NCBI GenBank assembly: GCA_029555925.1
Contig: JAKPQU010000581.1
Location: 1-20,765 of the forward strand
Source: Bacillota bacterium
GTDB lineage: Bacteria > Eremiobacterota > SpSt-956 > JAKJGF01
DNA length: 20,765 bases
Direction: 5' to 3'
The translations under genes were made by a program, and so were the position numbers. Numbering within the stretch: position 1 is the stretch's first letter; every line of letters starts with the position of its first letter. Under the pieces are notes generated by a model. It saw only the letters and a list, made by a program, of their open reading frames with translations, made no database searches and had not been told where the DNA came from. Shown here piece by piece: positions 1 through 16,503 of the stretch.

Positions 1-1123
1 GAAGAGCCTTTACAAGTTCTTTCTCATTCTTATCAATTATAATTTTGAGAGCACCAAGATTACTGCCTGCACCACCGTTTACAACGAGAATTAAATCTCT
101 GGCTATCATCTTAATGAATATCAACCCCTGTTGATATTCTGTCACCCAGTAATCCATAGATTTCCAGGATTTCAAAAGAGAAATACTATCAGCTACAATA
201 GAGCCAAGATTATCTCCTGATTGTGCCGCAGAGCTTCTGATTACAATACCGGTTAAATCAACAATAAGAACCTCTGAAACCATTTTATTTGAAGCAAAAT
301 CCTGAAGAGGACCGGCAAAAATTTCTCCAATTTGTTTATAGATTTCCTCTTTCTTTTTACGTTCTTCTTCTTCTTTTCTGAGTTTTTCTTCTTCTTCCAC
401 CCTGAGTTTTTCTTCTTCTTCTTTTCTGAGCTTTTCTTCTTCTTCTTTTCTGAGCCTGTCTTCTTCTTCTTTTCTGAGTCTTTCTTCTTCTTCCACCCTG
501 AGTCTCTCTTCTTCTTCTTTTCTTCTTTCTTCCTGCTGTCTTAACTTTTCTTCTACTTCCACTTCCGATTCTTTAACAAACGTAATAATTTCTTCAATCT
601 TTGTTTTACGTTTAAGGCACATCTGAAGATCAAACTCTAAAAAAATATCATCAGGAGAACTATTCAGTGTATCATGATAGTCTTTTATCTGTGTCTCAAG
701 CTCATCTTTCTCCTTTAATAACTCATCAGAGAACTGCCTGACTCCTTCCAGCTCAGGGGAAAATTCCGGTAAACTGTTTAATTTCTCAACAATTTCCTCT
801 GAAGGAGGTACATTTTTCTTCTGTAACTGGGCCAGTAAAAATCTGGCTTCAACATTATGAGGAGCATCGGCTAAAAGCTTTACAAGTTCAATATAAGCTT
901 CATTAATCATCCTTTGATATATATATATCCTGACAATAGCATTTTTTGCCTTTACATTATAAGGATCAATTTTGATGATTTTCTGATAACATGATAATGC
1001 TGCAAGTTTATTACCTCTCTTTAGATTGGCATCAGCATATAACATCAAAGAAGGAATATCTTCCGGACTCTGTGCTATCATCTCTTCATATTTATCAATC
1101 TGATGATCCAGACTAGTTTTCAT
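1..1123 (-). CDS. TPR / charged single-helix / Roadblock-LC7 fusion protein (3' end cut by window edge)
   Basis: The frame is open from the ATG at 1121-1123 to the left edge, giving about 374 residues without a stop. The start has a purine-rich ribosome site (GAGGGGA) at good spacing and overlaps the 3' end of the kinase gene by 11 nt, so the two are probably translationally coupled. Residues 1-105 hold TPR-like helices (for example ALSCYQKIIKIDPYNVKAK). Residues 105-190 look helical and charged. Residues about 193-256 are an E/K/R-rich run built on an 8-residue unit, EEEE[RK]LR[KV]. Residues from about 262 form a Roadblock/LC7 domain (VLIVDLTGIVIRSS, then LVVNGGAGSNLGALKIIIDK). Roadblock proteins dimerise and usually regulate Ras-like GTPases, so a cytoplasmic regulatory or scaffold role is inferred. 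The domain is almost complete at the edge, so probably only a few residues are missing. Confidence 0.85.
   Translation of the reverse strand, partial: MKTSLDHQIDKYEEMIAQSPEDIPSLMLYADANLKRGNKLAALSCYQKIIKIDPYNVKAKNAIVRIYIYQRMINEAYIELVKLLADAPHNVEARFLLAQLQKKNVPPSEEIVEKLNSLPEFSPELEGVRQFSDELLKEKDELETQIKDYHDTLNSSPDDIFLEFDLQMCLKRKTKIEEIITFVKESEVEVEEKLRQQEERRKEEEERLRVEEEERLRKEEEDRLRKEEEEKLRKEEEEKLRVEEEEKLRKEEEERKKKEEIYKQIGEIFAGPLQDFASNKMVSEVLIVDLTGIVIRSSAAQSGDNLGSIVADSISLLKSWKSMDYWVTEYQQGLIFIKMIARDLILVVNGGAGSNLGALKIIIDKNEKELVKAL
363..521 (-). repeat. 24-bp in-frame tandem repeat encoding a charged helix
   Basis: The pentamer CTGAG recurs on the + strand at 378, 402, 426, 450, 474 and 498, an exact 24-bp period over six units. 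Each unit encodes eight residues, EEEE[RK]LR[KV]. In coding order the variable last position reads V, K, K, K, V, K. An 8-residue rather than 7-residue period with E and K/R spaced by about four residues fits a stable single alpha-helix better than a classical coiled coil. Near-identical units make copy-number change by slippage likely. Confidence 0.9.
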
Positions 1124-2717
1124 TAAATTTCCCCTCTTTCGGCAAGTAAAAAATAAATCTGCTACCTTTATCAAGTTCGCTCTCCACTCTAATACTTCCT
1201 CCATGAACCTCAAGAATATATTTCACATTTGCAAGCCCCAGACCTGTTCCTTTTATCTTTGTCGTAATGGCACTGGCACCACGATAAAACCTTTCAAATA
1301 AACGGGGAATAACCTCTCCGGATATGCCTATACCATTATCTGCAACAGTTACTTCCCAGATATCTTTTTTATCTATTAAGGTAACTGATATATCTCCTCC
1401 GTCAGGAGAGTATTTAATTGCATTACTTAAAAGATTAATCATAACCCTGTAAAGCATATCCTCATCACCTATAAGAATACAGGAATTGACTGTTGAATTA
1501 AATATAATTTTATGAACAGCCTGCGGAGAAATTACCACTATTGATTTATTTATAATATTAACAAGATTTATTCTTTCCTTTTTAAATTCGTACCGCCCTG
1601 CTTCGAGTCTGGATAAATCAAGTAAATTATTTATAAGTTCCAGTAATCGAGAGGATTCTTCCTGTATAATCGAAAGGTATTTTTTTCTCCTGTTTTTATC
1701 AAGTTCTTTATTAATAAGTATATCTACAAAACCCATAATAGAAGTAAGAGGAGTACGTAACTCATGAGAAACCATAGAAACAAACTCGGATTTCATCTGT
1801 TGTATTTTTTTCATATGAGTTATATCATGAAAAACTATAACCTTCCCAAGAATTTCTCCTGAATTATCCCTTATAAAAGCACAATGAACATCGAATATTC
1901 TTCCGTCTTTTCCGAGAGGTAATTCGATGAAATTGATTGCATCCGGATTCTCTGAAATTCCTTCGACAAGAGGAATAGCTTCAGAAGCCCTTATTAATTC
2001 TCTATAATTCATACCTTCCAGAGAAGAACTATTTACACAGAATAGTTTTTCCAGGGCTGAATTAATCAATACAATTTCATTGGTATCATTTAAGACCATA
2101 ACTCCATTTGACAGACTTTTAAGTACTGCTTCCATCTTAATTTTTTCGAAGGTTATCTTTTTATTAAGTTGTTCCAGTTCTCCTGCTCTTTTCTTTTCCA
2201 GATCATAGAGACGGGCATTTTCTATGGCAATAGCAGCCTGATCACCTATCATAGAAAGGAAATTGAGCTGTTCTTCTGTAAAGTCATCCTTGGAAGAAGC
2301 TTTTCTCAGGTTTAAAACCCCTCTTAATTGATCTTTAACTTTAAGAGGTACACAGAGGCTGGACTTTATATCTTCCTTCCTGACAACAATATTGGTAAAT
2401 TCACTGTTATCGGCTTTCCCCACTAGAAGTAATGGCTCTCCGGTGAGAGCAACCTTGCCCGATATACTATCACCGATTTTTACCGAAACATCTTTAAGTT
2501 TATCCATATCAAGACCTGTAGCTACAGTAAGAACCAGTTCTTTCTGATCGTTAAGCAGCATAATAGAACCGGCTTCTGCTCCAAGATATTTTATGGTCAT
2601 TTTCATAATAAGATCCAGGACTTCCGGAAGGTTCAGAGTGGAATTTATAGCTTTGGCTATTTCATATAAAGCCAGTAACTCTTCTGATGTTTTATAAGAT
2701 GATAGAATACCTGACAT
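1113..2717 (-). CDS. Soluble GAF-PAS sensor histidine kinase
   Basis: The protein has 534 residues and no membrane segment or signal peptide, so it should sense in the cytoplasm. The domain order is GAF (about 20-170), a short coiled linker, PAS (about 192-305), HisKA with the H-box SMVSHELRTPLTSIMGF (phospho-acceptor His318), and HATPase_c with the N box around Asn428/Asn432, G1 box DNGIGI (460-465) and G2 box GTGLGL (490-495). All motifs needed for autophosphorylation are intact. The partner response regulator is not in the window and no receiver domain is fused. It follows the Roadblock gene after a 125-bp spacer and overlaps the next gene by 11 nt. The ribosome site upstream of its ATG is weak (AGAAAG). 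The ligands of GAF and PAS cannot be read from sequence. Confidence 0.95.
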   Translation of the reverse strand: MSGILSSYKTSEELLALYEIAKAINSTLNLPEVLDLIMKMTIKYLGAEAGSIMLLNDQKELVLTVATGLDMDKLKDVSVKIGDSISGKVALTGEPLLLVGKADNSEFTNIVVRKEDIKSSLCVPLKVKDQLRGVLNLRKASSKDDFTEEQLNFLSMIGDQAAIAIENARLYDLEKKRAGELEQLNKKITFEKIKMEAVLKSLSNGVMVLNDTNEIVLINSALEKLFCVNSSSLEGMNYRELIRASEAIPLVEGISENPDAINFIELPLGKDGRIFDVHCAFIRDNSGEILGKVIVFHDITHMKKIQQMKSEFVSMVSHELRTPLTSIMGFVDILINKELDKNRRKKYLSIIQEESSRLLELINNLLDLSRLEAGRYEFKKERINLVNIINKSIVVISPQAVHKIIFNSTVNSCILIGDEDMLYRVMINLLSNAIKYSPDGGDISVTLIDKKDIWEVTVADNGIGISGEVIPRLFERFYRGASAITTKIKGTGLGLANVKYILEVHGGSIRVESELDKGSRFIFYLPKEGKFNEN

Positions 2718-2759
2718 AATTTAACTTTCTATAATATTAATTATAATTTATTTCATCCT

Positions 2760-2830
2760 CGTAATGCGTAATGCGTAATAAGTAATGCGTAACTGGTTAT
2801 ATTCCCACGCATCACGCATTACGCATTACG
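2760..2830. repeat. Inverted heptamer repeat (GCGTAAT)n in intergenic spacer
   Basis: The left arm 2760-2776 (CGTAATGCGTAATGCGT) pairs perfectly with 2814-2830. A second segment, 2784-2790, pairs with 2807-2813 with one mismatch after a 7-nt bulge, leaving a 16-nt loop. The arms are built from a 7-bp word. No T-run follows on the minus strand, so it is unlikely to be an intrinsic terminator. It could act as an mRNA processing or stability hairpin between the Roadblock and kinase cistrons. Confidence 0.8.
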
Positions 2831-2842
2831 ATCATACGTCAC

Positions 2843-3199
2843 CTAAATAGCTGCTCCAAGGGCTTTTTTTTGCTTTCTGACTTCATATCTTATTCTGCCA
2901 AGATTAGCTCCCTTGGTAGCAATAATAACAAGAATTTTATCTTCCGACACAGGCTCCATAGCAATAACATTATCAACATATTCAATAACGGAATGGGTAA
3001 CTGCACCTTTGGATAACTGCTGTCCCATAATCTCTGCAGATTTTAAACCTTTAGAGGCCAGAAGACCAATATCATTTAAATCTGAAGAGGAAAAATTCTC
3101 TACTACACTGTTCAAAATCTTACCCTGTGCATCAACTATTAAGCCGGCTACTACACCGCCTAATTTTATAAATTCATTTAAAATATCTTCTGCAGACAA
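2843..3199 (-). CDS. Stand-alone Roadblock/LC7 domain protein (MglB-like fold)
   Basis: This 118-residue protein is essentially one Roadblock/LC7 domain: an N-terminal helix (AEDILNEFIKL), strand pair (VVAGLIVDAQGKILNS), central helix (DIGLLASKGLKSAEIMGQQL), then strands ending in ILVIIATKGANLGRIRYEV, whose NLG-R step is typical of the family. The start is TTG at 3197-3199, chosen because GGAGG lies six bases upstream and no ATG fits. Bacterial Roadblock proteins form homodimers; MglB acts on the GTPase MglA in polarity control. No such GTPase is present in the window, so the partner is unknown. It lies 18 bp after the membrane-protein gene and belongs to the same apparent operon as a second Roadblock domain (the fusion protein at the left edge). 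Confidence 0.9.
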   Translation of the reverse strand: MSAEDILNEFIKLGGVVAGLIVDAQGKILNSVVENFSSSDLNDIGLLASKGLKSAEIMGQQLSKGAVTHSVIEYVDNVIAMEPVSEDKILVIIATKGANLGRIRYEVRKQKKALGAAI

Positions 3200-3217
3200 A
3201 GGACACCTCCATTAAAA

Positions 3218-4060
3218 TTAATTGGACATTTTTCTTGGTAAATCAATACGACCGCCTTTAGAACCTGAAGGCGGTATATCCTTGTCAGAACTTTTCCCCT
3301 TTTGCGGCAGTTCAATTCTCATAGCTTTCATAGGCCCTGCCCTGTCAATCGAAAGATCCTGAAAAGAAGGGGTAGCTTCAATTTTCTTACTCGATGGCAT
3401 CTCTTTCCTGGGAAGTTCTATTTTAAGTCCATTTTCACTTTTTTTAGAAGAACTTACTGAAGAAAGGGGAGTAATTTTTTCGGGAAGAGAAAAATCTGCT
3501 TTATTCTTTTTTCCGTCTTCAAAATACGAAGGCACCGGACTTCTTTCCTCAAAATCCATCCGTTGTGAAGATGAATAATCTGTTACATCCAGACCTGGCT
3601 GACCGCCATACATATTATCTGACATATTTTCTGATATAAAATCCTTCTGTATATTAAAATCTTTTTCCTGCAGCAGAGAATCTTCATATAATTTAATTTC
3701 AGATTGAAGTAAATCTAATTCATCGTCACCAGGAGATGAACTTATCAGATAATTAGGCCTGGAAGCATTCAATTCATCCTGTGACACTACTTTATAGCTC
3801 ATATCGGATGTAAAGGCAGAACCATCGGATTTAACAAAAGGATCGTTTGGCAGCACTTTAACCATAGCAACTTCAGAAGAGACAAGTGTTTCCTGTTGCT
3901 GTTTTCTTACCACACAGGCTATAATAAGCCATACAATAAGAGCAATAAAAATAAAAGAAGTTATTGCAAAAATAAACCATAATGTATCAAGATTATTATG
4001 AGCGAATCTCTCAATATTGTTTAACATCATGTTCATAGAAGATAAAGCAATTACTGGCAT
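3218..4060 (-). CDS. Single-pass membrane protein with disordered tail carrying three [KR]I[ED]LP[RQ]K motifs
   Basis: The product is 280 residues when started at the ATG at 4058-4060, which has AAGGTG six bases upstream. An in-frame TTG at 4096 would overlap the previous gene and has no evident ribosome site. One hydrophobic segment lies at about residues 28-51 (WFIFAITSFIFIALIVWLII) and is followed by CVVRKQQQ; the positive-inside rule places the long C-terminal part in the cytoplasm. That tail is rich in S, P, D, E and K and looks disordered. It contains KIELPRK (213-219), RIELPQK (248-254) and RIDLPRK (271-277, near the C-terminus), with a weak relative DFSLPEK at 189-195. No family is recognised. 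The layout suggests a membrane anchor presenting repeated docking peptides, perhaps for the TPR proteins encoded next door; this is inference. Confidence 0.8.
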   Translation of the reverse strand: MPVIALSSMNMMLNNIERFAHNNLDTLWFIFAITSFIFIALIVWLIIACVVRKQQQETLVSSEVAMVKVLPNDPFVKSDGSAFTSDMSYKVVSQDELNASRPNYLISSSPGDDELDLLQSEIKLYEDSLLQEKDFNIQKDFISENMSDNMYGGQPGLDVTDYSSSQRMDFEERSPVPSYFEDGKKNKADFSLPEKITPLSSVSSSKKSENGLKIELPRKEMPSSKKIEATPSFQDLSIDRAGPMKAMRIELPQKGKSSDKDIPPSGSKGGRIDLPRKMSN

Positions 4061-4082
4061 ATTAATCACCTTCAACAGGAGG

Positions 4083-7000
4083 TTACTCTGTTTCAATAGT
4101 AAATTCTATAAGTTTCGGATCCGTATCTTCAGGTTCTTTAACAGTTTCTATTTTTCTGGTCATTTCCATAATCTTTTCCATAGTATCTTTGAATTTTATA
4201 TTTATTTCACATATGCCTTCATAAGCTTTCTTGGCATCCTTATATTTACCTATTTCTTCAAAGGTTCTTCCAAGATCATACCTGAGTTCCAGATACTCAT
4301 CATCAGGCATACCAGTTGCATCCAGTCCAATTTCCAGAATTTTACGGAACTGACGTGATGCAAGTTCCTTAAAACCTTCCTCATAAAAACAATCACCTAT
4401 CATTTTTAAAGAAGAAAGCCTTCTGGAACTATCCTTTGATGCAGCATTGAAAGCTCTGACAGAACCCTCAATAAAGCCTATCTTTTTATATATAATACCC
4501 CAGTTATAATAAGATTCTGCAAGCTTCGGATCAACAACTTCATTAATCTTAACATTATCTACCAGTTCATAAACATTTCCGCTGGCAATAAGCTTTTTAG
4601 ACCATTCTACGGCACTGTCAAGATCACCTTTACGGGCACAGGTAAGGGTTAATTTAGAATAGATACCGGGATAACCTGCTGAACTATCCAGAACCTTCAA
4701 ATATGTAGACATTGCTTCATCCCACATCTGATTATCAAAATAAACATTTCCCATACAGACATAAAGTTCAGGACTGTCCTGATTTTCTTTTAAGGCCTGT
4801 TGAAATGTCAGGGTAGCTTTCTCTAAATCACCGCTCTTTGCCTGAGAATTAATAAGAGAACAGTATTCTTCCACTACTTTATCCTTAAGACCTGATTTAT
4901 CATAGAGACCTATAAGTCTCTGTCTGTAATCAAGATTTTCCGGAGTTAAATGAGTAATCTTCGTATAAATCTCTATACTTTCCTCTTCTCTCTTCTCCTT
5001 TATCAAAAATTGAGCTACCAATTCATAACTTTCTATAGCTGAAGGAATATTGTTCTGCGATAAGTATATCTCTCCGATTGCTTTTTGTATTTCTATGGCA
5101 TCAGAGCCTCTGTCTACTTTCCAGTATATATCTACAAGCACCTTATATATTTCTATAATCTGTTCCATCATACCATGTTCTCTGTAAAGAGAAACTATAT
5201 CAAGACATTCCTTTATGGCATCATCAAAACGATTTAATTTAAGATATTCATCCAGTAAAATACGATAAATACCTGTAGTATCAGCCAGTTTATTCATTTT
5301 AATATAGGTCTGTACCACATCTTTACATTCTCTGATAGCTGTATCAAAATCACCTGCACTGGAGAGAACAGAAACAAAGTCTTTCTGAAATGATAAAGCT
5401 TTCTCAATATTTTCTTCCCGGGTAAGAATTTCTATTACCCTCTTATAATAAGGAATCTGTTCTTTGTGTTTATGTTGTTCCGAATAAAGCTTCAGAATTT
5501 CCTCATAAATGCCGAGTCCTTCATTGAACATTTTGCGGGAAAAATACATATCTCCTATTCTGGAATTAACCTCTATAGATGAATCAATATCTCCCTTATT
5601 CTTATAAACATTTGCAAGATCATGTAATATAGATACTGCTTTATCTATTTCATTAAAACTGAGATACATATCACTTAATTTTTTATATGAGTCAATATTA
5701 CCTGGCTCCATATTTATTATCTTTTGATACAGCTCTTTTGCTTCATTCTGCATATCTGATTTTACATAAATATCTATAAGAGAGAAATAATGGTCTACCG
5801 CTTCCTTCGTTCTTCCTTCCAGAGATAAAAGTTCACTTAATTTTACAATTGTTTCAATACTGTCTGGCTGTATCTCAAGGAGTTTATTAAATATCTCTAT
5901 TGCATAACTGATAAGGTTATGTTCAAGATAAATATCGGCAAGAGACATATATTCTTTCACTGCTATATCAGGAATACCCTGTTTGACATAATAATTGCAG
6001 AGTTTTTTTCTTACATTGATATCATTCGGCTCAACATCCAGAACCTTCTTACACATTTCAATGGACTTCATATAATTGCCTCTTCTCTCATAGGCATTGG
6101 CAAGGAAAATATATTCAGGTTTTACCTTTTCTGTCTTACCCTGTAAAGAATAAACCTCTACAATCTTCTCTCTTACATCCAGATTAACAGGCATATAGCA
6201 GAGAACACGCCTGTAGACTCCGATTGCAGGTTCAAATTGTTCTTTTTCCACATAAACATTACCCAGTGTCAATAACTGTTCCAGAGCTTCGTCAATCTGG
6301 CCTATAGATAAATAAACATCAACAAGTGTTTCTCTTATAGCACTGTTTCTGGGATCTAAATCCAGAACCTTCTTGAAATTATCTATACCTTCTTCCAGCA
6401 TATCTTTACCTATATAAATTTCACCTATTTTGGAAAGAGTGGGTATATGATTCGGATCTGACTCAAGGACCAGTTTAAATTCTTTTATACTCTCTTCATA
6501 TTCACCTTTTTCAAGATGGTTAAGAGCAAGCTCATAATGCATGTCAGCACTATCAGGGAATAAAGAGATCATTCTATGATATGTTTCATCGGCTTTTGTA
6601 TGCTCGCCCAGCTCCCTGTAAAGATTCATAGTCAGTAAATATTCTTCTTTTGCTGCATCTGTAAGTCCCTGTTTTGTATAAATCTCTGCAAGCAACATAT
6701 GGGCATCAACACTTTTGGCATCAAATTCGAAAACCTTTTCGCATATATTTGTGCCTTCTTCATAGAGATTTTTATCAAGGTACGTTTTCCCGAGAGCTAT
6801 AAATTCCGGTATGGCATTATCTATATCTTCTATAGCAAGTAAATTATTTATCAATTTATGCCTTGCCTGAAGGTTACCCGGATCAAGTGTGAGAATTTTC
6901 TGATATATTTCTATTACTTTTTCTCTTACTTCTCTGTTACCCGGTTCCCAGTCAAGAAGCCTCTCATATAAGAGTATAACCTTGTCAAGAAGGCCGTCTT

Positions 7001-7829
7001 TAGTATATATATCAGCAAGTCTCATACAGGTCTGTATGGCTTTATCCACCAGACCTTCATTGGAATAAATATCACCCAGCCTTGTAAGGATATCTATATT
7101 TTCAGGCTCAATTTTAAGAATATTTTCATAAACTCTTATAGCTTCCTGAACCTCATTCTTTTTTAAGTAAATATCACCTGCCTGAGAAAACCATTGAATA
7201 GCATTTGTATCTTTATGCTGTTTATAACATATATCTCCTAATTGTTCATAAACACTGGCATCATCAGGTGTAAGCCTGAGAACTTCCTGATACTCACCGA
7301 TAGCCTCACTGTTTTTTTCAAGTTCCGTATATATAAGGCCCAGGTGTTTATGAATCTCGGCAGGATTGGCAGGATTCATTTCTATACTCTTTTTAAATTC
7401 AGCCTCTGCATCACTTAAATTACCTTTAGCCAGATATACAAGGCCAAGTTTCCAGTGTATTTCAGCTCCGTATTCTTCCAGAGCATCTCTTACCTGGCCT
7501 AAATCTGCAGTAGGAGTTCTGACGAAAAAAGAGCTTTTTTTCGGTGTTCCTTCACGTTTTTCCAGATTTAAACATTCCTGAAATATTTCAATGGCTTCAT
7601 CATAATTTCCATCCCTTTTACATACTTCAGCCCAGTTTATATACTCAGCAATAGCATCACGATAGGAGCTTTTACTTTTGCACATATCTATCAATTTTCT
7701 GCGGACATCTGAACTGTGGGGATCCATTCTGAGTGCTCTCTGATATTTAGCAATAGCACTGTCGTATTTATTTTGTTTGGCCAAGTCATCCCCCTGACGA
7801 ACTATCCTCAAGAATTTAGGGTCAGACAT
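4083..7829 (-). CDS. Giant TPR-repeat protein (1248 aa), probable cytoplasmic scaffold
   Basis: The ATG at 7827-7829 follows GGAGGAGGAC. There is no signal peptide or membrane segment. Almost the whole length is TPR: units such as AIAKYQRALRMDPHSSDVRRKL and AEAEFKKSIEMNPANPAEI, many arranged as a double unit of about 70 residues that alternates an [AL]xIYxxxG helix pair with a Yxx[IL]LxxxPxN pair. The C-terminal 120 residues (YNWGIIYKKIG..., then LELRYDLGRTFEEIG) resemble the end of the other giant TPR protein, so the two are paralogues at least there. The last residues are acidic (EPEDTDPKLIEFTIETE). TPR arrays bind peptides or proteins; no enzymatic domain is seen. It heads an operon with the membrane protein, Roadblock protein, kinase and Roadblock fusion, behind a consensus promoter. 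Confidence 0.92.
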   Translation of the reverse strand: MSDPKFLRIVRQGDDLAKQNKYDSAIAKYQRALRMDPHSSDVRRKLIDMCKSKSSYRDAIAEYINWAEVCKRDGNYDEAIEIFQECLNLEKREGTPKKSSFFVRTPTADLGQVRDALEEYGAEIHWKLGLVYLAKGNLSDAEAEFKKSIEMNPANPAEIHKHLGLIYTELEKNSEAIGEYQEVLRLTPDDASVYEQLGDICYKQHKDTNAIQWFSQAGDIYLKKNEVQEAIRVYENILKIEPENIDILTRLGDIYSNEGLVDKAIQTCMRLADIYTKDGLLDKVILLYERLLDWEPGNREVREKVIEIYQKILTLDPGNLQARHKLINNLLAIEDIDNAIPEFIALGKTYLDKNLYEEGTNICEKVFEFDAKSVDAHMLLAEIYTKQGLTDAAKEEYLLTMNLYRELGEHTKADETYHRMISLFPDSADMHYELALNHLEKGEYEESIKEFKLVLESDPNHIPTLSKIGEIYIGKDMLEEGIDNFKKVLDLDPRNSAIRETLVDVYLSIGQIDEALEQLLTLGNVYVEKEQFEPAIGVYRRVLCYMPVNLDVREKIVEVYSLQGKTEKVKPEYIFLANAYERRGNYMKSIEMCKKVLDVEPNDINVRKKLCNYYVKQGIPDIAVKEYMSLADIYLEHNLISYAIEIFNKLLEIQPDSIETIVKLSELLSLEGRTKEAVDHYFSLIDIYVKSDMQNEAKELYQKIINMEPGNIDSYKKLSDMYLSFNEIDKAVSILHDLANVYKNKGDIDSSIEVNSRIGDMYFSRKMFNEGLGIYEEILKLYSEQHKHKEQIPYYKRVIEILTREENIEKALSFQKDFVSVLSSAGDFDTAIRECKDVVQTYIKMNKLADTTGIYRILLDEYLKLNRFDDAIKECLDIVSLYREHGMMEQIIEIYKVLVDIYWKVDRGSDAIEIQKAIGEIYLSQNNIPSAIESYELVAQFLIKEKREEESIEIYTKITHLTPENLDYRQRLIGLYDKSGLKDKVVEEYCSLINSQAKSGDLEKATLTFQQALKENQDSPELYVCMGNVYFDNQMWDEAMSTYLKVLDSSAGYPGIYSKLTLTCARKGDLDSAVEWSKKLIASGNVYELVDNVKINEVVDPKLAESYYNWGIIYKKIGFIEGSVRAFNAASKDSSRRLSSLKMIGDCFYEEGFKELASRQFRKILEIGLDATGMPDDEYLELRYDLGRTFEEIGKYKDAKKAYEGICEINIKFKDTMEKIMEMTRKIETVKEPEDTDPKLIEFTIETE

Positions 7830-7981
7830 TTATTATAAGTCCTCCTCCAGTATGATAATCACTAACATATCATTACTTAAGCTGTATATTAAATCAGGAA
7901 AACAGACAGGAGGTTACCGGATGTTACCTCTTTAAAATCTATTTACCGGAACAGTTTATATTAATAAAAACTTGCCATAAT

Positions 7982-8011
7982 ATTATATACAAATACCACA
8001 TAACGTGTCAA
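7982..8011 (-). promoter_or_regulatory. Consensus sigma-70-type promoter for the TPR/Roadblock/kinase operon
   Basis: On the minus strand a perfect TTGACA (8006-8011) is followed after 18 bp by a perfect TATAAT (7982-7987). Transcription would start near 7975, about 145 nt before the ATG at 7829. This is the only exact hexamer pair noticed in the window and is well placed for the operon that starts with the 1248-residue TPR protein. Confidence 0.8.
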
Positions 8012-8292: not shown

Positions 8293-11200
8293 TTATCCTC
8301 CGGCTTTTAACTGTTCCTCCAGATGTTGAATTCTCTGTGTAACATCACGATATTTTATGTCTACGCCGAATATTTCTTCGTACATTCCCAGGGCTTCTTT
8401 TATCATGCCACGTCTTTCGTATAAAAGGCCAAGATTATAACGCAGTTCCTTATAGTCTACATCCTTGTAACCTTCTGATGAAAGACCTTTTTTAAATTGA
8501 TTGATGGCAAGATTTCCCATGCCCATCTGCTCAAAACACAGTCCAAGCATATTATATGCATCCAGTAGTTTCTCAGGACACTTTACCAGCGATTGAAATT
8601 GCTCTATAGCATTCTCTAAATCACCGAATTCCTTGTAAATTATACCAAGGTTATATCTGGCTTCAAAATCATCGGGGTTTTTATCTATTGCTACTTTATA
8701 GCGATCTACAATATCTCCAAGAATTTCTTTGTTTTTTAAATCTTTACTGACCTGTATGGCCTGCTGCAGTTTTCCGAGCTTTATATAACCTGCAGTCAGT
8801 CTCTGCAATGCATCTATATGTGTCGGACTCAGTCTTCTTATAAGCTCAAATTCCTGTAAAGCTCCCTCTAGATCATTATTCTTATCAGCCATTAGTACAC
8901 CGAGCTGGTAACGTGCTTCCAGATTATTCTGATCAAGAGAGAGAACCTTATGGTAAGCCTCAATAGCTTTAGTGTAATTCCCATCGAAACTGTATATTTC
9001 AGCCATAGACATATATTCCTGCATGGCTTTGCTGCTGAATCCCTTCTTTTCGTACAATTCAGCCAGTTTGTAATGAACATCATAGTTTTTTGGCTCTATC
9101 TGTAATATCTTTTCATATAACTCTATAGCTTTATCCAGATCATTCTTTTTCAGGAATATTTCAGATAAATTCTGACACTCTGCTATAGCTTTTTCTCCAA
9201 GATCTTTTCTTCTGTATACTTCTATAAGTTTTTCTCTTGCCGTAATATGAGTCGGTTCCGCGCCGATGACATTTTGCGCCATTTCCATTGCCTGATCATA
9301 TTTACCCTGATTGATATAAATATCTGCAATAACAAGATTTTCTTCTATAGCTTTACTGGACATTCCGCTCTTCATATAAAGCTGGCTTAATTTAACATGG
9401 GCATCAAGATGCTCGGGAGCAAGCCGTGTTATAGCTTCATAACTCTCTATTGCATTATTATATAATTTCTTATCAAGATACATTTCAGCAATGAGCAGGT
9501 ATTCCTGTATGGCTTTATCATTCATTCCCAGCTGTGCATAAGTATCTGCAAGTTTTGTATGGGTCAATAAACCTTCCGGTTCTATTTTCAACATTTTCTG
9601 ATATATATCAACTACTTCTTTAATCTGTCCCTTTGAACTGTATATGTTTGCCACTGCGATATATTGATATATAGATTCTCTCTTTTTATCCTGGGTAAGT
9701 AAAATCTCTGCCATATTCTCTCTGGCAATAACATCGTCACTATCCAGAGCAATAAGTCTCTGATATATATCAAGAGCACTGTCATAAATATTATTCTCTT
9801 TATAAATCTGGCCGAGTTCCAGGTATTTCCCTCTGAGACCTTCTGCATTACCTGTTAAATTATATAATTCAATCATCTGGTGATATATATTTATTTTGTC
9901 CGTCTCTTGATTACATATTTCTTGATATTCTTTAATAGCATCGTCAAGTAAGCCAAAATCTATTAACATAGATATAAGATTATTTCTGGCAATTATATCA
10001 CCTGTTCTGGCCTCTTCGCGCCATTGTTCTATCTGTGCACTTAAACTGCCCTGTGCCGGTTTTCTCTGTAACGATGGCACATTTTCTGCGACAGGTTTTT
10101 CTTCTGACATTTTTTTCTGCTCTTCATAGTCAGAAACACTCTCTTCAGGCCTGAAATCAACTACCATCGCATCAGGTGATTCCGGAATTTCTCTGTGTTC
10201 TTCCTCTTTTTCTTCCTCTTCATCTTCTACCGGCCTGAAATCAACTACAGCTATATCAGAAACAGATGTGACATCTTCATGTTTAGACATATCTACTACC
10301 GGTGGTTCCTCTATAGCAGGAGCAATCTCTACTTTGATTTCTTCTGTCTGGTCGGTAGAAGGTTTCTCTTCTGTTTCTTCTTCTTCAAAGGTAAGAGTAA
10401 TCCCTTCTCCATCAGGATCAAAAGCGAGTAAAGCCGTCTCTCTATCATCCACAATCTCACCTATGGAAATACCTTCAGAGATATTGGAACTCTGTGCCGG
10501 TTCTTTTTGCCTGCCAAACCCACTATCGGTGAATGGCTTCTGTTCTTCACGATGAACAGGTTTTACCTGTGCTTCTACGGGCTGCATCCTGGCAGGCTCT
10601 TCGGAGGCCAGCTCTATAAGTCTTCCACTCCCTGTCTTGCTGCTTATTAAAGATCTGGCAGTAGGAGCACTGTAGTCACCTCTTTTAGGAATAATCCTTG
10701 GCTTCAACATCTGGTCAGGTCTGATTTCCTCAAGAGGAGCCATAAGAGATGGTTTTTTTACTCCCTCATCTCTTTCAGGAAAACTTACCAAAGGAGCTTT
10801 TCTTTCTTCTTCCACAGAAGAAGGAGCTATTTCTTCCTGATACATAACCGGAGGTTCTGGCTGAGGAAAATCATCAGAAGGCTGTATTTCTTCTTTTATA
10901 TTTGCTCGCATTTTCATCGCATCTTCTTCATTCAACATAGTTTTATATGGTGTTAAAGGTTTTGTAGATCTAACAGGATGCATTCCCGGCCCGGGAAGCA
11001 TGGTATTACTTAAAGACAGTCGTGCAGTTCCCTGCTGGGTCTGTATTTGAGGCATTCTCGCCGGAACAGGTGCAGGACCTCCTCTTTTAGGGCCAAGGGG
11101 CTTTGTCATAGGTGAGCCATCTCCGCGGGGTATATTCATAATTCCTGACATTGGTCTTCTGAGACCTCTGGCAGAAGGTAATGCTCCATCTCGCATGCCT

Positions 11201-12255
11201 GCCATAGGAGGCTGCACAGGAGTTTCTCTTTCTGCAGCAGGAGGAGGACTGGAATATCCCAGTTCTTTTATCATACGAAGGGCTTTTGCATGTTTGCAAT
11301 CAAGATCCAGTACTACTTCACACATCTGAATAGCATTGGGCTTCATTTCCTGTTTCAGATAATCTTCGGCAGCTGCAAAATATTCCTTTACTGCTTCCTG
11401 GACCTGTCCTCTTATTAAGTATAATTCACCCAGTTTTTCACGGGCTTCAGTCTTCATGGGGTTTATATCTACTATTTTTCTGAATGCCAGTATTGCAGAA
11501 TCTATTTCACCTTTTTCCTGGCATACAAGCCCCAGTTCAGTCAGGGCTTTAATATGTGTAAGATCATATCTCAGGATAAAACGAAATGCATTTTTAGCAT
11601 CTTCCAGTTGTCCGAGTTCTCTGTAAAGAGTACCCAGATTAAGATGGGTTTCCGTATCATCAGGCTGAAGGACAGTTACTCTCTTATAGGTTTCGGAGGC
11701 TTTAAGAAGTTCACCTTTTTCCCAGAAAGCCATGGCTACTTCTTTATACTGGGCTATTCCTTCTTTTATATGTCCCTGTTTAACATTCATAATAGCGAGT
11801 TCGAGCCTAGCATCAAGGTTATCAGGATCTACTTCAATACCTTTTTGTAAAAATTCAAGAGCTTTTTCTGACTGGCCCTGCATACTGCAGATACGTGAAA
11901 GAGCAAAACACTGCTCTCTTACGTCATCTTTGTTATCCATATGATTATAAATTTCAATTAATTTCTCACGGGCTTTAATACTTTCAGGGTCAAGTCTTAT
12001 TATTTTATAACATATATCTATGCCCTGGTCTAAGGATGTATCTCCAAGATATATATCGGCTATTTTAAGATACTGATCTGTTACCTTGGAAATTAATCCC
12101 CGTCTGGCATAGAGGTCAACCAGTTCATAACAGATCTGAAGGTTTTGTGGCTCAACTTGTATTAATTTTTCATATTCTGTTATAGCCTGATCTATATCTC
12201 CCTGCTTGGCAAATGTCTGGGCTACCTTAAAACTCGCATTACTGTTTTTTGACAT
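8293..12255 (-). CDS. Giant TPR-repeat protein with central disordered linker (1320 aa)
   Basis: The start is the ATG at 12253-12255, eight bases after AGGAGG. An in-frame GTG nine bases upstream overlaps that ribosome site and is rejected. Residues about 1-330 are TPR (for example AITEYEKLIQVEPQN, AILAFRKIVDINPMKTEAREK). Residues about 335-735 are a low-complexity linker, first rich in P, R, G and M (GPKRGGPAPVPARMPQ), then strongly acidic, with VVDFRP twice. Residues about 737-1320 are a second TPR array with double units of about 70 residues containing ADIY/AEIY steps. The C-terminal module (YNLGIIYKEFG..., ELRYNLGLLYERRG) parallels that of the 1248-residue TPR protein. No signal peptide, so a cytoplasmic two-lobed scaffold is likely. 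It directly follows the pilMNOPQ terminator, which hints at a pilus-related role but does not prove it. Confidence 0.92.
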   Translation of the reverse strand: MSKNSNASFKVAQTFAKQGDIDQAITEYEKLIQVEPQNLQICYELVDLYARRGLISKVTDQYLKIADIYLGDTSLDQGIDICYKIIRLDPESIKAREKLIEIYNHMDNKDDVREQCFALSRICSMQGQSEKALEFLQKGIEVDPDNLDARLELAIMNVKQGHIKEGIAQYKEVAMAFWEKGELLKASETYKRVTVLQPDDTETHLNLGTLYRELGQLEDAKNAFRFILRYDLTHIKALTELGLVCQEKGEIDSAILAFRKIVDINPMKTEAREKLGELYLIRGQVQEAVKEYFAAAEDYLKQEMKPNAIQMCEVVLDLDCKHAKALRMIKELGYSSPPPAAERETPVQPPMAGMRDGALPSARGLRRPMSGIMNIPRGDGSPMTKPLGPKRGGPAPVPARMPQIQTQQGTARLSLSNTMLPGPGMHPVRSTKPLTPYKTMLNEEDAMKMRANIKEEIQPSDDFPQPEPPVMYQEEIAPSSVEEERKAPLVSFPERDEGVKKPSLMAPLEEIRPDQMLKPRIIPKRGDYSAPTARSLISSKTGSGRLIELASEEPARMQPVEAQVKPVHREEQKPFTDSGFGRQKEPAQSSNISEGISIGEIVDDRETALLAFDPDGEGITLTFEEEETEEKPSTDQTEEIKVEIAPAIEEPPVVDMSKHEDVTSVSDIAVVDFRPVEDEEEEKEEEHREIPESPDAMVVDFRPEESVSDYEEQKKMSEEKPVAENVPSLQRKPAQGSLSAQIEQWREEARTGDIIARNNLISMLIDFGLLDDAIKEYQEICNQETDKINIYHQMIELYNLTGNAEGLRGKYLELGQIYKENNIYDSALDIYQRLIALDSDDVIARENMAEILLTQDKKRESIYQYIAVANIYSSKGQIKEVVDIYQKMLKIEPEGLLTHTKLADTYAQLGMNDKAIQEYLLIAEMYLDKKLYNNAIESYEAITRLAPEHLDAHVKLSQLYMKSGMSSKAIEENLVIADIYINQGKYDQAMEMAQNVIGAEPTHITAREKLIEVYRRKDLGEKAIAECQNLSEIFLKKNDLDKAIELYEKILQIEPKNYDVHYKLAELYEKKGFSSKAMQEYMSMAEIYSFDGNYTKAIEAYHKVLSLDQNNLEARYQLGVLMADKNNDLEGALQEFELIRRLSPTHIDALQRLTAGYIKLGKLQQAIQVSKDLKNKEILGDIVDRYKVAIDKNPDDFEARYNLGIIYKEFGDLENAIEQFQSLVKCPEKLLDAYNMLGLCFEQMGMGNLAINQFKKGLSSEGYKDVDYKELRYNLGLLYERRGMIKEALGMYEEIFGVDIKYRDVTQRIQHLEEQLKAGG

Positions 12256-12293
12256 TCCATGCACCTCCTTGTTTACTCAAGAACCGGGTTCGC

Positions 12294-12592: not shown

Positions 12593-12621
12593 ATTATATC
12601 ATAAGAAAGAGACCATGTCCA
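12593..12621 (-). promoter_or_regulatory. Sigma-70-type promoter for the 1320-residue TPR gene
   Basis: The minus strand has TGGACA (12616-12621), a 17-bp spacer and TATAAT (12593-12598). The predicted start near 12586 gives a leader of about 330 nt. It lies downstream of the pilQ terminator, so the TPR gene is probably its own transcription unit and not a sixth pil cistron. Confidence 0.65.
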
Positions 12622-12728: not shown

Positions 12729-12766
12729 AAAAAAAAGAGGAAAGTAGAAATTCTACTTCCCTCTTT
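12729..12766 (-). terminator. Rho-independent terminator of the pilMNOPQ operon
   Basis: On the minus strand, a stem of up to 16 bp (12751-12766 with 12734-12749, one G-U pair) is followed by a run of eight T (12729-12736, partly inside the stem base). It begins 14 bp after the pilQ stop codon, the expected place for operon termination. Confidence 0.9.
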
Positions 12767-12779
12767 AAATAAAAAGCAA

Positions 12780-14657
12780 CTAGTATTTCAGTACTTTCGG
12801 TGTTATCATAAAGACAACTTCCGTAGACTGCATAGCAGCACTCTTATTTCTAAATAAAGCACCTAAAATAGGTATATCGCCTAAAATAGGTATCTTGCTT
12901 ATATCAACTCTTTCATCGTCTCTGAGCAATCCGCCTAATATAATGGTATCTCCGTCTTTTACCCTTACAGTGGTAGATGCAGATCTGGTAGCAACCTGCG
13001 GGAAGTTCTGAATAAAGCTGGTTACTGAACTTACTTCAGGTGTTATCTCTGTAGTGATATATCCGTCACCATTGACAATAGGAGTTACACTCAGAACGAC
13101 ACCTACGTCTATGTAGGTAGCCTGATAAAGTCCTGCTCTCGGATCATAGTAAACCAGAGGAATACGGTCGCCGAGATGGATATTGGCTTTCAGTCCATCC
13201 ATTGTTGTTATTCTTGGGTTTGCAAGAAGCTTTGCTTCTGATGATGAAAGAAGGAAATTTATCGTTGACTGTAACGAGAAAGCTGTTCTTGTAAATGTGT
13301 GAATACCTATATCACCCATTGGTAACGTGGAGGTGCCTTCATCTATAGGATTTGCCCCTGCGCCATCAGTATGAACTCTTTCAGACCAGGTTGCCTGTAA
13401 TGAAGAACCCCAGTTAATACCGAGATTTCTTGAAGTTGAAGATGCAAGTTCGAGTACTTTCAATTCCATAGAAACCTGTGGTTGTGCTACGTCTACACTG
13501 GCAAGGAAATCCTTTACAGTAGTGAGGGTTCCTTCAGAACCGGTAACTATAAGGGAATTTAATCTGTTATCTACAATAATACTGCCTGCTGGTACAAGTC
13601 CGCCCATCTGAGAAGCCACTTCAGTTGCCTTCGCATATTTAACCTTGAACACCTGAGTTACCGGCGGTGGTGGTGCCGGCGGCGGTGGCGGTGGCGGTGG
13701 GCCAGGGACATCCAGATTTGCAATTAAAGCTCTTATGTCTCTAATCTGATCGGGAGTACCCTTTACTATAACAGCCTGAATTCTTGTATCGGCAGAGGCT
13801 GCATTCTGGAATGTTGCATTGATTGTACTTGCTACGGAAGATGCATCTGCATACTCTAAATTGATAACCTGAGTCGTAATCTCTTCAGGTATCTTTTCCG
13901 GAGGCTGCGGTGCAGGGAATACTGTAGCAAGATGTTCGGGACTGTCTATTACTATAACATTTCCGATTCTTCTGTAATCAAGATCATGAAGTCTTAAAAC
14001 AAGGTTCAGAGCTTTCTCAAGGGGAACCTTCTCAAGACGTAAGGTTATACCACTGGCACCGGCACCGGGGCCAAGAACGATATTTTCTTTTGTCTGATCA
14101 GAGAAAAGTTTAAGAACATCGGCAAGATCTGCACTCTTAAGATCACATGAAACAAGCTGCGGAGCCGGTTCTTTTACGACTGTTCTCGGTCTGCTCTGAG
14201 CCTGGGCAAATACATCGGGACCTTTAACACCGGGAGCATCTATCGCAACAGCAACAATTTTGCCGTTATTCGAAAGAGCTGCCTGGAATTCGGAAGGTTT
14301 TGCAAGATCTATAACCACTCTTACAATATCAGGATCACCACTGCCATCATGGATAGAGAACTGACCGGTTCTTATCTGTTTAACAGAGGCAATATTTACC
14401 GGAGTAGTTTTAACTGTTTTTGAAAAGAGAGCAGGGAAAATATCTATAATAATAGAATTTTCGGGTTTTTTCTGCTCTACAACCTTATATTGTACCTGGC
14501 CAGTAGCGTAAATGTTAACCTGAAGCTGGCCCGGATATTCCTGAACTTCAATTTTATTAATGTGCGGACTTTCGCCTGCAAAAACTGATGAAGATATAAC
14601 TAAAATAAGACACACAAGCAAACTAGTCATCACACTAGTTTTTAATGTTTTGCACAT
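12780..14657 (-). CDS. pilQ: Type IV pilus secretin PilQ
   Basis: The product (625 residues) forms the outer-membrane channel through which the pilus exits. A signal peptide spans about 1-27 (SLLVCLILVISSSVFA, then G). Then come an AMIN-like domain (31-140, a PilQ feature that can bind peptidoglycan), an STN/N0 domain (168-240), a first secretin N domain (262-316), a polyproline linker (318-332), a second N domain (335-390) and the secretin core (395-625) with the late motif IPILGDIPILGALF (589-602). The ATG lies 3 bp after the pilP stop; its best ribosome site (GGAGG) is inside the end of pilP, about 14 bases upstream, which is wide and suggests coupling to pilP translation. It is the last gene before the operon terminator. 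No lipoprotein pilotin gene is seen nearby. Confidence 0.96.
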   Translation of the reverse strand: MCKTLKTSVMTSLLVCLILVISSSVFAGESPHINKIEVQEYPGQLQVNIYATGQVQYKVVEQKKPENSIIIDIFPALFSKTVKTTPVNIASVKQIRTGQFSIHDGSGDPDIVRVVIDLAKPSEFQAALSNNGKIVAVAIDAPGVKGPDVFAQAQSRPRTVVKEPAPQLVSCDLKSADLADVLKLFSDQTKENIVLGPGAGASGITLRLEKVPLEKALNLVLRLHDLDYRRIGNVIVIDSPEHLATVFPAPQPPEKIPEEITTQVINLEYADASSVASTINATFQNAASADTRIQAVIVKGTPDQIRDIRALIANLDVPGPPPPPPPPAPPPPVTQVFKVKYAKATEVASQMGGLVPAGSIIVDNRLNSLIVTGSEGTLTTVKDFLASVDVAQPQVSMELKVLELASSTSRNLGINWGSSLQATWSERVHTDGAGANPIDEGTSTLPMGDIGIHTFTRTAFSLQSTINFLLSSSEAKLLANPRITTMDGLKANIHLGDRIPLVYYDPRAGLYQATYIDVGVVLSVTPIVNGDGYITTEITPEVSSVTSFIQNFPQVATRSASTTVRVKDGDTIILGGLLRDDERVDISKIPILGDIPILGALFRNKSAAMQSTEVVFMITPKVLKY

Positions 14658-14660
14658 AAA

Positions 14661-15287
14661 CTATTTTTGCACCTCCTGTTGTAATGGTAATGTACCTTTT
14701 TGTCCTTCTTTAACCAGAACGACTTCTTTTTCATTTACCTGTAATACCCTGTATCCGTCCTCTAACTCCATACCAGCCTTAACAGTATATCCCTTTTTGC
14801 TGGAAGTTACAATTCCGACATATTCAGAACCATTCCATAACCAGCCTGTATACTTGAATAATCCCTGTATGACAGAATTATCTATCTTGGCAGGTTTCTG
14901 TGGCACAGATTTCGGAACACCCTCTGTTGTAGCCGGAGTTGCCGTTGCCACAGGTGGCGGTGGTGTAGCCTGTCCGGTTTTACCAGAATCAGACGTACCT
15001 GAACTCTTCGGAGGAAGAGTTGGCGGAGCAGTTGGCTGCTGTATATTAGTTGGTGGTGCTCCACCGCCTTCTATTAAATTATTAAACGGCTGAGGCTGTC
15101 CAGATTCGGCATTAGGCTGATATTCACCTGCCTGTGTAGGCTTTGGCGCAGGAGTCGCTTCTCCCGGTTTAATCTCAATCTCCTTCGAAGGGGGTTTACC
15201 TCCTTCCTGGGCAAAGACGAACTGTAATGTCATTGCTACAAGAAAAACTACTACTAAAAGAGAAACCACCCCTATAAATTTTCTCAT
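14661..15287 (-). CDS. pilP: PilP-like periplasmic pilus assembly protein
   Basis: This 208-residue protein starts with a hydrophobic segment (IGVVSLLVVVFLVAMTLQFVFA) that may be a signal peptide or a membrane anchor. Residues about 28-120 are rich in P, T, G and Q and probably form an extended linker across the periplasm. The C-terminal part (about 128-200) has the small beta-domain pattern of PilP: a W-x-G-x-E-Y-x-G-I-V strand, GYTVKAGMELEDGYRVLQVNE, and VVLVKEGQKGTLPL. PilP connects the PilN/PilO inner-membrane ring to PilQ. Sequence identity to classical PilP looks low, so the assignment rests mainly on position between pilO and pilQ, size and this C-terminal pattern. No lipobox cysteine is seen, unlike many PilP lipoproteins. 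A GGAGG sits 15 bases before its ATG, inside the end of pilO. Confidence 0.8.
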   Translation of the reverse strand: MRKFIGVVSLLVVVFLVAMTLQFVFAQEGGKPPSKEIEIKPGEATPAPKPTQAGEYQPNAESGQPQPFNNLIEGGGAPPTNIQQPTAPPTLPPKSSGTSDSGKTGQATPPPPVATATPATTEGVPKSVPQKPAKIDNSVIQGLFKYTGWLWNGSEYVGIVTSSKKGYTVKAGMELEDGYRVLQVNEKEVVLVKEGQKGTLPLQQEVQK

Positions 15288-15289
15288 AA

Positions 15290-15904
15290 CTATTGTTGTA
15301 CACCTCCTTTAGTAAACTGATAGGCCATTAACGGTAATGTAATACTCAAAGTCTGATAACCAGCTTTATTTTTCTTCGGAGACAGACTTATACTATTAAC
15401 AACAACCAGTTTATTAAACCTTGACTTATCAGATAATGTATTCAAAAAAGTCCTCAATGTATCATACTGACCTTCTACATTCATCTGCATAAGGTAGGTA
15501 TTATAAACACTACCTCCACCCTCACCGGCCTGTCCGGCAGTTGCGTTTCCCGGAGTGATAGAGAGAATAACAAAATCCCAGTCCTGCAAATTTCCTCTTA
15601 CTTCTGCTACAAGTTTCTCTATTGATTCAAGATAGCTGGGAATAAAATCTTCGCCACCCTCAACATCTACCTGGAGATTTGCAAGTTCTTTCTGGGCATC
15701 CTGCAGTTGTTTCTCATATTGATCCATATTCTGAACATAAGCTTTATCTGCATCTCTCTGGTTTGTAAGCTCAACTATACCTCCAGGACCTTTTTCCAGT
15801 GCGTCAAGTTCCTGCTGTTTCGGTTGATAAACAAACAAATAAAAACCTATACCAATTAAAATTACTAAACAGAAAAAAACCGCAATCTTCATCCCGGCGG
15901 TCAT
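15290..15904 (-). CDS. pilO: PilO, inner-membrane type IV pilus alignment protein
   Basis: The product has 204 residues with a short cytoplasmic N-terminus, one membrane segment at about 6-26 (AVFFCLVILIGIGFYLFVY), a coiled coil at about 30-75 (QQELDALEKG, then DADKAYVQNMDQYEKQLQDA) and a C-terminal PilO-type ferredoxin-like domain (about 85-200) containing VILSITPGN and a YDTLRTFLNTLS helix. Its ATG shares ATGA with the pilN stop, so translation is coupled, and GGAGGGGG lies just upstream. PilO pairs with PilN and links PilM to PilP/PilQ. Confidence 0.92.
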   Translation of the reverse strand: MTAGMKIAVFFCLVILIGIGFYLFVYQPKQQELDALEKGPGGIVELTNQRDADKAYVQNMDQYEKQLQDAQKELANLQVDVEGGEDFIPSYLESIEKLVAEVRGNLQDWDFVILSITPGNATAGQAGEGGGSVYNTYLMQMNVEGQYDTLRTFLNTLSDKSRFNKLVVVNSISLSPKKNKAGYQTLSITLPLMAYQFTKGGVQQ

Positions 15905-16485
15905 TTTGTTCCACCCCCTCCCGCAAGCACATAATTAGCTGTCATACTAAAACTATAAAGAATAAATCCCTTGTTATCTTCACTCCTGGTTATACTACTT
16001 ACAACAGGGTTATCAAAAGTAGGAGAGTCGATAATATTTCTCATAAATAAAGCAACTATAGCAAGACCGTCTTTATTACCTGCCACAGCCTTACAGTTAC
16101 ATTTTACATTTTTACTTCCTGGCTGAATTTCCAGACTATCAATCCACACATTCTTGGGTATAATCTTTGTAACCTCTCCAAGAAGAGTGCTGTAATTTTT
16201 GGGATCATCTCTTAAAGATTTTAGCAGTTCAACCTGTTGTTTAATACTCTGAGTTAATTGTTTATACTGGTCAATCTTTAGCTTAAGAGGAGCAAGTTGT
16301 TCAATTTCTTTCTGTAACTCTTCTATCTTGGTTTTCTTCTCAGCAATCTGATTATCAAGAGTCATCTTATAGTAAAAAAGTCCTCCTCCTACAGCCAGCA
16401 ATACAAAGATAAGAAATATTGTTACTCCATCAATTAATTTTGGCCTTTTACGCTCAGATGGCAACAAATCTACCTTAACGGTCAA
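15901..16485 (-). CDS. pilN: PilN, inner-membrane type IV pilus alignment protein
   Basis: The short N-terminus carries the conserved VDLLPSERKRP segment, which in the family docks into PilM. A membrane helix follows at about 20-40 (TIFLIFVLLAVGGGLFYY), then a coiled coil (KKTKIEELQKEIEQLAPLK) and a periplasmic alpha/beta domain (IIPKNVWIDSLEIQPGSKNV). The TTG at 16483-16485 is preferred because AGGAGG lies eight bases upstream; an in-frame GTG at 16494 overlaps that ribosome site. The product is then 194 residues, normal for PilN. It begins 18 bp after pilM ends. Confidence 0.92.
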   Translation of the reverse strand: MTVKVDLLPSERKRPKLIDGVTIFLIFVLLAVGGGLFYYKMTLDNQIAEKKTKIEELQKEIEQLAPLKLKIDQYKQLTQSIKQQVELLKSLRDDPKNYSTLLGEVTKIIPKNVWIDSLEIQPGSKNVKCNCKAVAGNKDGLAIVALFMRNIIDSPTFDNPVVSSITRSEDNKGFILYSFSMTANYVLAGGGGTK

Positions 16486-16503
16486 TTCCCTCACCTCCTA
16501 AAA

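Follow-up and report, generated by a model that had tools for sequence, protein, structure and literature searches.

A 20,765-nucleotide stretch of an Eremiobacterota genome (deposited as Bacillota bacterium; assembly GCA_029555925.1, contig JAKPQU010000581.1; hereafter the window) carries, downstream of the pilus assembly genes pilMNOPQ, a gene module that is conserved within one phylum and has the core order TPR1 > TPR2 > anchor > PATAN-like > Robl > TPR–Robl. We give about even odds (a probability near 0.5) to the reading that its products form a scaffold for gating or positioning type IV pili by way of two paired Roadblock proteins, without the GTPase MglA. The module genes of the window lie on the minus strand after pilQ, in the order TPR1, TPR2, anchor, Robl, kinase and TPR–Robl fusion. 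The first, TPR1 (8293..12264, 1323 aa, from open reading frame (ORF) and Pfam), is a giant tetratricopeptide repeat (TPR) protein whose middle is a long low-complexity stretch, while TPR2 (4083..7829, 1248 aa, from ORF and Pfam) is a TPR solenoid along most of its length. They are followed by a membrane anchor with one transmembrane (TM) segment (3218..4096, from ORF and sequence inspection), the 118 aa Roadblock/LC7 protein Robl (2843..3199, TTG start, PF03259 E 3.1e-9) and an accessory soluble GAF-PAS-HisKA-HATPase histidine kinase (1113..2717, 534 aa, from Pfam). The last gene encodes a TPR–coiled-coil–Roadblock fusion (2..1123, from profile and model), of which 374 aa are visible before it ends at the window edge (base 2); its start was taken as 1123, with an alternative upstream at 1213, and its Robl domain spans about bases 334-2. 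The original prediction, made from the letters of the window, had described five genes on one strand after pilMNOPQ, and all five are in place on the minus strand. The border it drew is too narrow, as it leaves out TPR1, with which the module begins one gene earlier, and the PATAN-like gene.

The distribution of the module was determined by aligning TPR2 with nine relatives and scanning two peptide patterns from this alignment over 84,980 species genomes. This yielded 248 matching stretches, in 32 of which tblastn detects an encoded relative (E up to 1e-3). Genes resembling TPR1 or TPR2 score high at loci L001-L015 and L017. L018-L032 were rejected as module loci, being generic TPR matches (L018-L020 inspected; the others weak and partial). 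The ten best TPR2 relatives (P0001-P0010) share 92-28% identity across 82-100% of the query. Three loci (L011, L013 and L014) belong to Candidatus Eremiobacterota, and their genomes share a phylum set of 149 genomes with G001, the closest relative, which contains L001. Searching this set gave a TPR2 match (E 2.1e-67 or better) in 27 genomes, referred to as module genomes, and a PF03259 match in 26, of which 23 are also module genomes and three are not. Genes at the module loci were named with profiles built from seed sequences of those loci. TPR1 is located 18-174 nt upstream of TPR2 in L001, L002, L009 and L011. Robl lies downstream of TPR2 on the same contig in 21/27 module genomes, with a contig end between the two in the other six (G004, G012, G013, G016, G145 and G148). 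The fusion is found downstream of Robl in 24 of 25 genomes; in G147 the contig ends first. The kinase had been predicted to be the input of the module, a role that as a core function we reject since it is present between Robl and fusion in only 12 of the 25 genomes. Five others have a receiver without a kinase at this place, four of them with a kinase after the Wzy-like gene that follows the fusion, and eight have neither. A second conserved set is seen at L186:3539-13222 and L187:4557-14047, and partially in L172 and L193. It comprises a giant TPR protein, a protein of ~800 aa with C-terminal Roadblock domain(s) and without further Pfam match, a 115-aa Robl and a receiver-GAF-kinase, with a LuxR-type regulator in L186.

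Both Roadblock proteins have the expected fold. The stand-alone Robl of the window scores 36.9 bits against PF03259 (cut-off 23) and thus belongs to the Roadblock/LC7 family. A profile of the Robl family compared with the PDB retrieves an archaeal Roadblock protein best (E 4.3e-9), followed by MglB (E 1.5e-7). The Robl domain of the window fusion has no Pfam match, and 5/15 members of its family match PF03259 with E values no higher than 0.1 (best 4.5e-4). Comparison of the fusion C-terminal domain with Robl by hhalign gives 99.1% (E 1.6e-18), and the AlphaFold model of the fusion (mean pLDDT 88.0, pTM 0.55) has MglB as its best PDB match (Foldseek E 3.1e-6, TM by target 0.63). Profile comparison and predicted model together confirm the Roadblock fold in the TPR fusion, as the original prediction had claimed. 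The module Robls group in a single clade in a tree of 66 Robl sequences (26/26, support 0.993), as do the fusion domains with two exceptions (23/25, support 0.958), both of them cut by contig ends. This separation suggests that the module Robl and the fusion Robl domain are an old paralogous pair.

The best-known role of Roadblock proteins in bacteria is that of partners to MglA-like GTPases. No GTPase gene is among those of the window, as had been noted, and we searched all 27 module genomes with PF00025 and with the MglA protein of G006 (the latter also on G015). An MglA-type GTPase was detected in one of the 27, G006, where it is encoded on a contig other than that of the module and beside other Robls. 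A cognate MglA gene, usually an adjacent one, would mark Robl as an MglB; it was found neither in the window nor in 26/27 module genomes, a result that rests on the set of 27 and is weak for a single genome, completeness figures not being given. Comparison with MglA/MglB, as made in the original prediction, hence holds for the fold and fails for the switch. The MglA query also weakly matched a 1114-aa frame of G005 and, in G026, a frame of ROCO type. G013 encodes a Rab-like GTPase of 173 aa next to a Robl gene (L189, contig 32). All other PF00025 matches listed in module genomes fall in open frames at least 392 aa long, and those inspected we take by their motifs to be translation factors (IF2), Obg, HflX, Der, FeoB and ROCO types; none of 15 further GTPase-type matches inspected is a stand-alone MglA-like protein. 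PF08477, also run on all 27 genomes, reported the G013 and G026 proteins and missed the G006 MglA, and is therefore no test for MglA. By eye, the G006 protein (L033/L177, contig 186) has an apparent C-terminal membrane tail and adjoins Robl sequences. The G026 protein (L217, contig 11) is a leucine-rich-repeat ROCO-type protein (PF08477 E 7.7e-35).

These searches bear on a Myxococcus-like alternative, in which Robl would regulate, in the manner of MglB, a small GTPase whose gene lies elsewhere or which has diverged too far to be seen, with TPR1 and TPR2 as SgmX-like effectors. The match of the Robl profile to MglB among other Roadblock structures, the MglA adjoining Robl sequences in G006 and the Rab-like GTPase of G013 all agree with it. 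However, MglA occurs only in G006 and off the module contig, the listed PF00025 matches other than those of G006 and G013 lie in long frames, and the G006 Robl beside MglA falls outside the module Robl clade. We consider this alternative unlikely, if the strongest of those weighed here.

The remaining core gene encodes the PATAN-like protein, and it is the module gene preceding Robl in 23/24 genomes with flank available (at a distance of 0.9-2.4 kb in G005, G006, G007 and G016). The exception is the closest relative G001, which has the gene on contig 361 (E 1.2e-72); loss of the gene in the window lineage is thus rejected for G001, where it is encoded elsewhere. The relocated gene (L262:2385-5847) is seen by eye near an opposite-strand MreB-like gene. 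Structural comparison of a model identifies the C-terminus of the protein as a Cdc48-N-like double-psi barrel, with VIA-align rows that span mainly model residues 208-297 and barely test the N-terminal half. A profile of the family had no match among PDB sequences up to E 10. PF14332 (DUF4388), presumably the Pfam entry for PATAN, matches 17/22 members at E up to 0.1 (best 1.5e-6), with member 1 at 18.9 bits, under the cut-off of 25. Comparison by hhalign with four PF14332 stretches of G001 gives 58.6% (E 9.5e-5), and in a PF14332 search of 10 genomes the module gene was matched only in G020, below cut-off. G001 itself has eight PF14332 matches at seven places (L237, L240 and L243 among them), and those in L240 and L243 look by eye like Ser/Thr-kinase–receiver–PATAN fusions.

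Two observations link the module to type IV pili. Firstly, PilQ is followed by TPR1 in 14/27 module genomes (G001, G004, G005, G006, G007, G008, G011, G016, G020, G022, G023, G025, G145 and G146), in addition to the window. Secondly, a strong PilM match (E of 1e-25 or better) is found in 39 of the 149 phylum genomes, and TPR2 is present in 24 of these 39 compared to 3 of the 110 without (Fisher p 1.6e-14; cut-offs were set after seeing the lists, counts were made by hand and kinship was ignored). The co-occurrence with pilM-Q that the original prediction had proposed as a check is therefore borne out, and with it the conserved synteny behind the suggested scaffold; that this scaffold positions or gates the pilus is a conjecture beyond gene order. 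A TPR1-like gene also follows PilQ in G028 and G030, both without a PF03259 match, and the link between TPR1 and the pil genes may therefore be older than the Roadblock part.

The anchor has its TM segment at about residues 35-63, followed by a low-complexity tail of ~230 residues that the positive-inside rule would place in the cytoplasm. A repeated short motif had been noted in this protein and is real, with copies KIELPRK (3404..3424), RIELPQK (3299..3319) and, at the C-terminus, RIDLPRK (3230..3250), read from the sequence on the minus strand. Relatives encode at this position a TM-bearing ORF with a long low-complexity tail, and several of these tails end in RTISLDLxK or similar, to which the window motif is related. 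The pattern [IL][DE][LIVF].[KR] occurs 15 times in 17 anchor tails versus 1.60 expected, having been picked after viewing the sequences and with several of the 17 rows being close relatives. It lies within the last 20 residues in 8/17 tails and is not found in 7/17. The anchor motifs resemble the PilN N-terminus (LTVKVDLLPSERKR in the window), which binds PilM in Thermus and Pseudomonas according to the excerpts available from the cited paper (PMC5805733). Mimicry of PilN by the anchor motif is not supported overall, with p < 0.05 in only 2/17 genomes in a shuffle test over the whole tail: 0.030 for the window (at a site other than the motif) and 0.015 for G023, followed by 0.085 for G022 and 0.22 or more for the remaining 14. 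For G022 and G023 we retain it as a lead suggested by the sequences. Anchor starts are provisional, and the ORFs taken in L006, L007 and L203 begin inside TPR2. In G023 and G022 (L199, L153), PilN starts LRVDLKSKE, not KVDLLPTER, and the anchor tails end IDLKSEN and LDLKPED.

We propose that the module encodes a cytoplasmic and inner-membrane scaffold that would control when and where type IV pili extend. The giant TPR solenoids of TPR1 and TPR2 would hold client proteins, the single-pass anchor would tether the complex to the inner membrane, and the short motifs in its flexible tail could serve docking. Robl would pair with the Roadblock domain of the fusion, generating a platform, scaffold or switch that operates without an MglA-type GTPase. 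The PATAN-like protein is a probable link to the pilus motor, as cyanobacterial PATAN regulators bind PilB, and kinase, CheY-like receiver, both or neither would provide lineage-specific inputs. Gene content, order and conservation, the Roadblock fold of both proteins and the detection of MglA in only 1/27 module genomes are what we observe; a single complex, the Roadblock pairing, docking via the anchor motif and pilus control are what we infer. The reading as a type IV pilus scaffold draws on published systems, as described in the accessible parts of the papers: in Myxococcus, polar PilB requires SgmX, a protein with 14 TPRs, with which PATAN proteins co-occur (PMC11580455), and in Synechocystis an interaction with PilB1 is described for PATAN-REC proteins (PMC9090330, citing Jakob 2020 and Han 2022). 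Furthermore, MglB homologues are located near PATAN genes (PMC4316618, same proviso). A more far-reaching version would have a GTPase-free Roadblock machine, consisting of an anchor-tethered Robl/TPR–Robl heterodimer with a PATAN–Cdc48-N-like adaptor and interchangeable two-component inputs, take the place of the MglA switch as controller of type IV pili across much of the phylum; this we hold tentatively, as possible rather than probable. If true, the Roadblock fold would be able to serve pilus control without MglA (none found in 26/27 genomes). The module also provides a defined gene set for testing in a phylum that has very few cultivated members, with the PATAN-type protein and its Cdc48-N-like barrel as a candidate adaptor.

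Several observations weigh against a pilus scaffold. The module lies away from the pil genes in 7 of 21 judged genomes (7/27; G002, G009, G010, G013, G014, G018 and G026, with 2.5-6 kb of flanking sequence to one or both sides), while contig ends or a missing PilM match left linkage not judged in 6/27 (G003, G012, G019, G147, G148 and G149). According to the original prediction, genes found away from pil loci would speak against a pilus-linked module, and this is partly the case. At the module loci examined, G002, G018 and G019 showed no anchor-like ORF, and some modules therefore do without it. For many members the PATAN assignment is weak and, even in Myxococcus, direct contact of SgmX with PilB or PilM went undetected, according to the accessible text (PMC11580455). 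The unlinked genomes would suit a general envelope or polarity scaffold that is near pil by inherited gene order and acts on another machine, and so would the paralogous TPR–Robl–kinase set, whose examined stretches (L186, L187, L172 and L193) showed no pil gene. However, TPR2 co-occurs with PilM across the 149 genomes, though confounded by phylogeny, and a TPR1-like gene follows PilQ in G028 and G030 as well; hence this explanation appears improbable. The 3' neighbour of the module also weighs against pilus control: in 17/19 judged genomes it is a Wzy/O-antigen-ligase-like gene (PF04932 E 1.3e-22 in L001), which also points to glycosylation or polysaccharide. On that reading the module would act on surface glycan or pilin glycosylation and not on pilus dynamics, its TPR scaffolds arranging sugar transferases together with the Wzy/O-antigen-ligase-like protein; the sugar-transferase-like and epimerase-like genes seen by eye downstream in L001 would fit. 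Yet G002 and G018 have no Wzy gene at that place while the remaining module stays, the Roadblock and PATAN parts are better suited to motor control, and the PilQ > TPR1 junction speaks against it too, making a glycan role similarly improbable.

The original prediction knew of no described system with this layout, and none was found in the accessible portions of the open-licence literature, an absence that is no proof. Work on Eremiobacterota Roadblock proteins was likewise not found in open-licence literature, and such a module is not in evidence in what is accessible there on Eremiobacterota type IV pili. Among described systems, the Bdellovibrio MglA–RomR system has a TPR partner. It shares with the proposed scaffold the placing of type IV pili, at one pole and under a polarity system (PMC3983030; this and the following comparisons extend to the available excerpts), and differs in being GTPase based. 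The Myxococcus xanthus MglA/MglB–SgmX–FrzS–SopA system has a large TPR protein and a Roadblock protein, and its control of type IVa pili further involves SgmX-co-occurring PATAN proteins and receiver-type partners (PMC11580455, PMC9481161). The module TPR proteins are large, as SgmX is; SgmX is also recruited by MglA. In contrast to Myxococcus, the module parts are in one gene cluster, often after pilMNOPQ, with an MglA-type GTPase in 1/27 genomes, two Roadblock paralogues of which one is TPR-fused, a membrane anchor with tail motifs and a double-psi barrel in the PATAN-like protein. A PATAN-type region together with receivers in a type IV pilus context is also a feature of the cyanobacterial PATAN-REC regulators of PilB1 (PixE and others; PMC9090330), whereas in the module the PATAN-like and receiver regions are separate proteins and a Cdc48-N-like barrel is added; binding of PilB by the module protein is suggested by analogy. 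Streptomyces conservons (CvnA-D) have a histidine kinase and a Roadblock protein in one cluster (PMC4316618). A conservon also includes CvnC and the GTPase CvnD, while the window has no GTPase gene and the module is pil-linked, with a kinase that is soluble and optional.

Ahead of the module, the genes named in the window are, all on the minus strand, a sigma-70-family gene, a pilin, a prepilin peptidase, pilM, pilN, pilO, a pilP-position gene and pilQ, which is followed by TPR1. pilM (16504..17652, PF11104 E 1.4e-58), pilN (15901..16494, PF05137 E 9.9e-9), pilO (15290..15904, PF04350 E 4.2e-6) and pilQ, the secretin (12780..14657, PF00263 E 1.2e-42), follow one another in the order of a type IVa pilus alignment complex. 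The gene at 14661..15287, with sub-threshold Pfam matches only, is assigned to pilP by position. A consensus promoter had been predicted, and the promoter-like site TTGACA-18-TATAAT upstream of TPR2 (7982..8011, minus strand) indeed has 12/12 consensus bases and, as a consensus match, is the best of 77 sites listed in a scan of the window; the total of 77 is no excess over shuffles (mean 66.1, sd 8.0). With the starts used, TPR2 and anchor overlap by 14 nt and kinase and fusion by 11 nt, with gaps of 18 nt between anchor and Robl and 125 nt between Robl and kinase. These short distances make the single transcription unit of the original prediction plausible for its five genes. A terminator-like hairpin on the minus strand, 3' of pilQ (12734..12766, 15 pairs of which 5 are G-C, T tail, from a sequence scan), and an 11/12 promoter-like site upstream of TPR1 (12593..12621, minus strand, TG preceding the second hexamer, by consensus match) suggest that pil genes and module are separate transcription units in the window. 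The gap between Robl and kinase contains, at about 2740-2825, an inverted repeat with units like GCGTAATGCGTAATGCG, which by eye has a REP- or MITE-like look. At the other end of the window, the sigma-70-family gene (19767-20720) precedes the pilin gene, and a similar gene is found by pilin/pilD/pilM in G001, G007, G009, G010 and G014.

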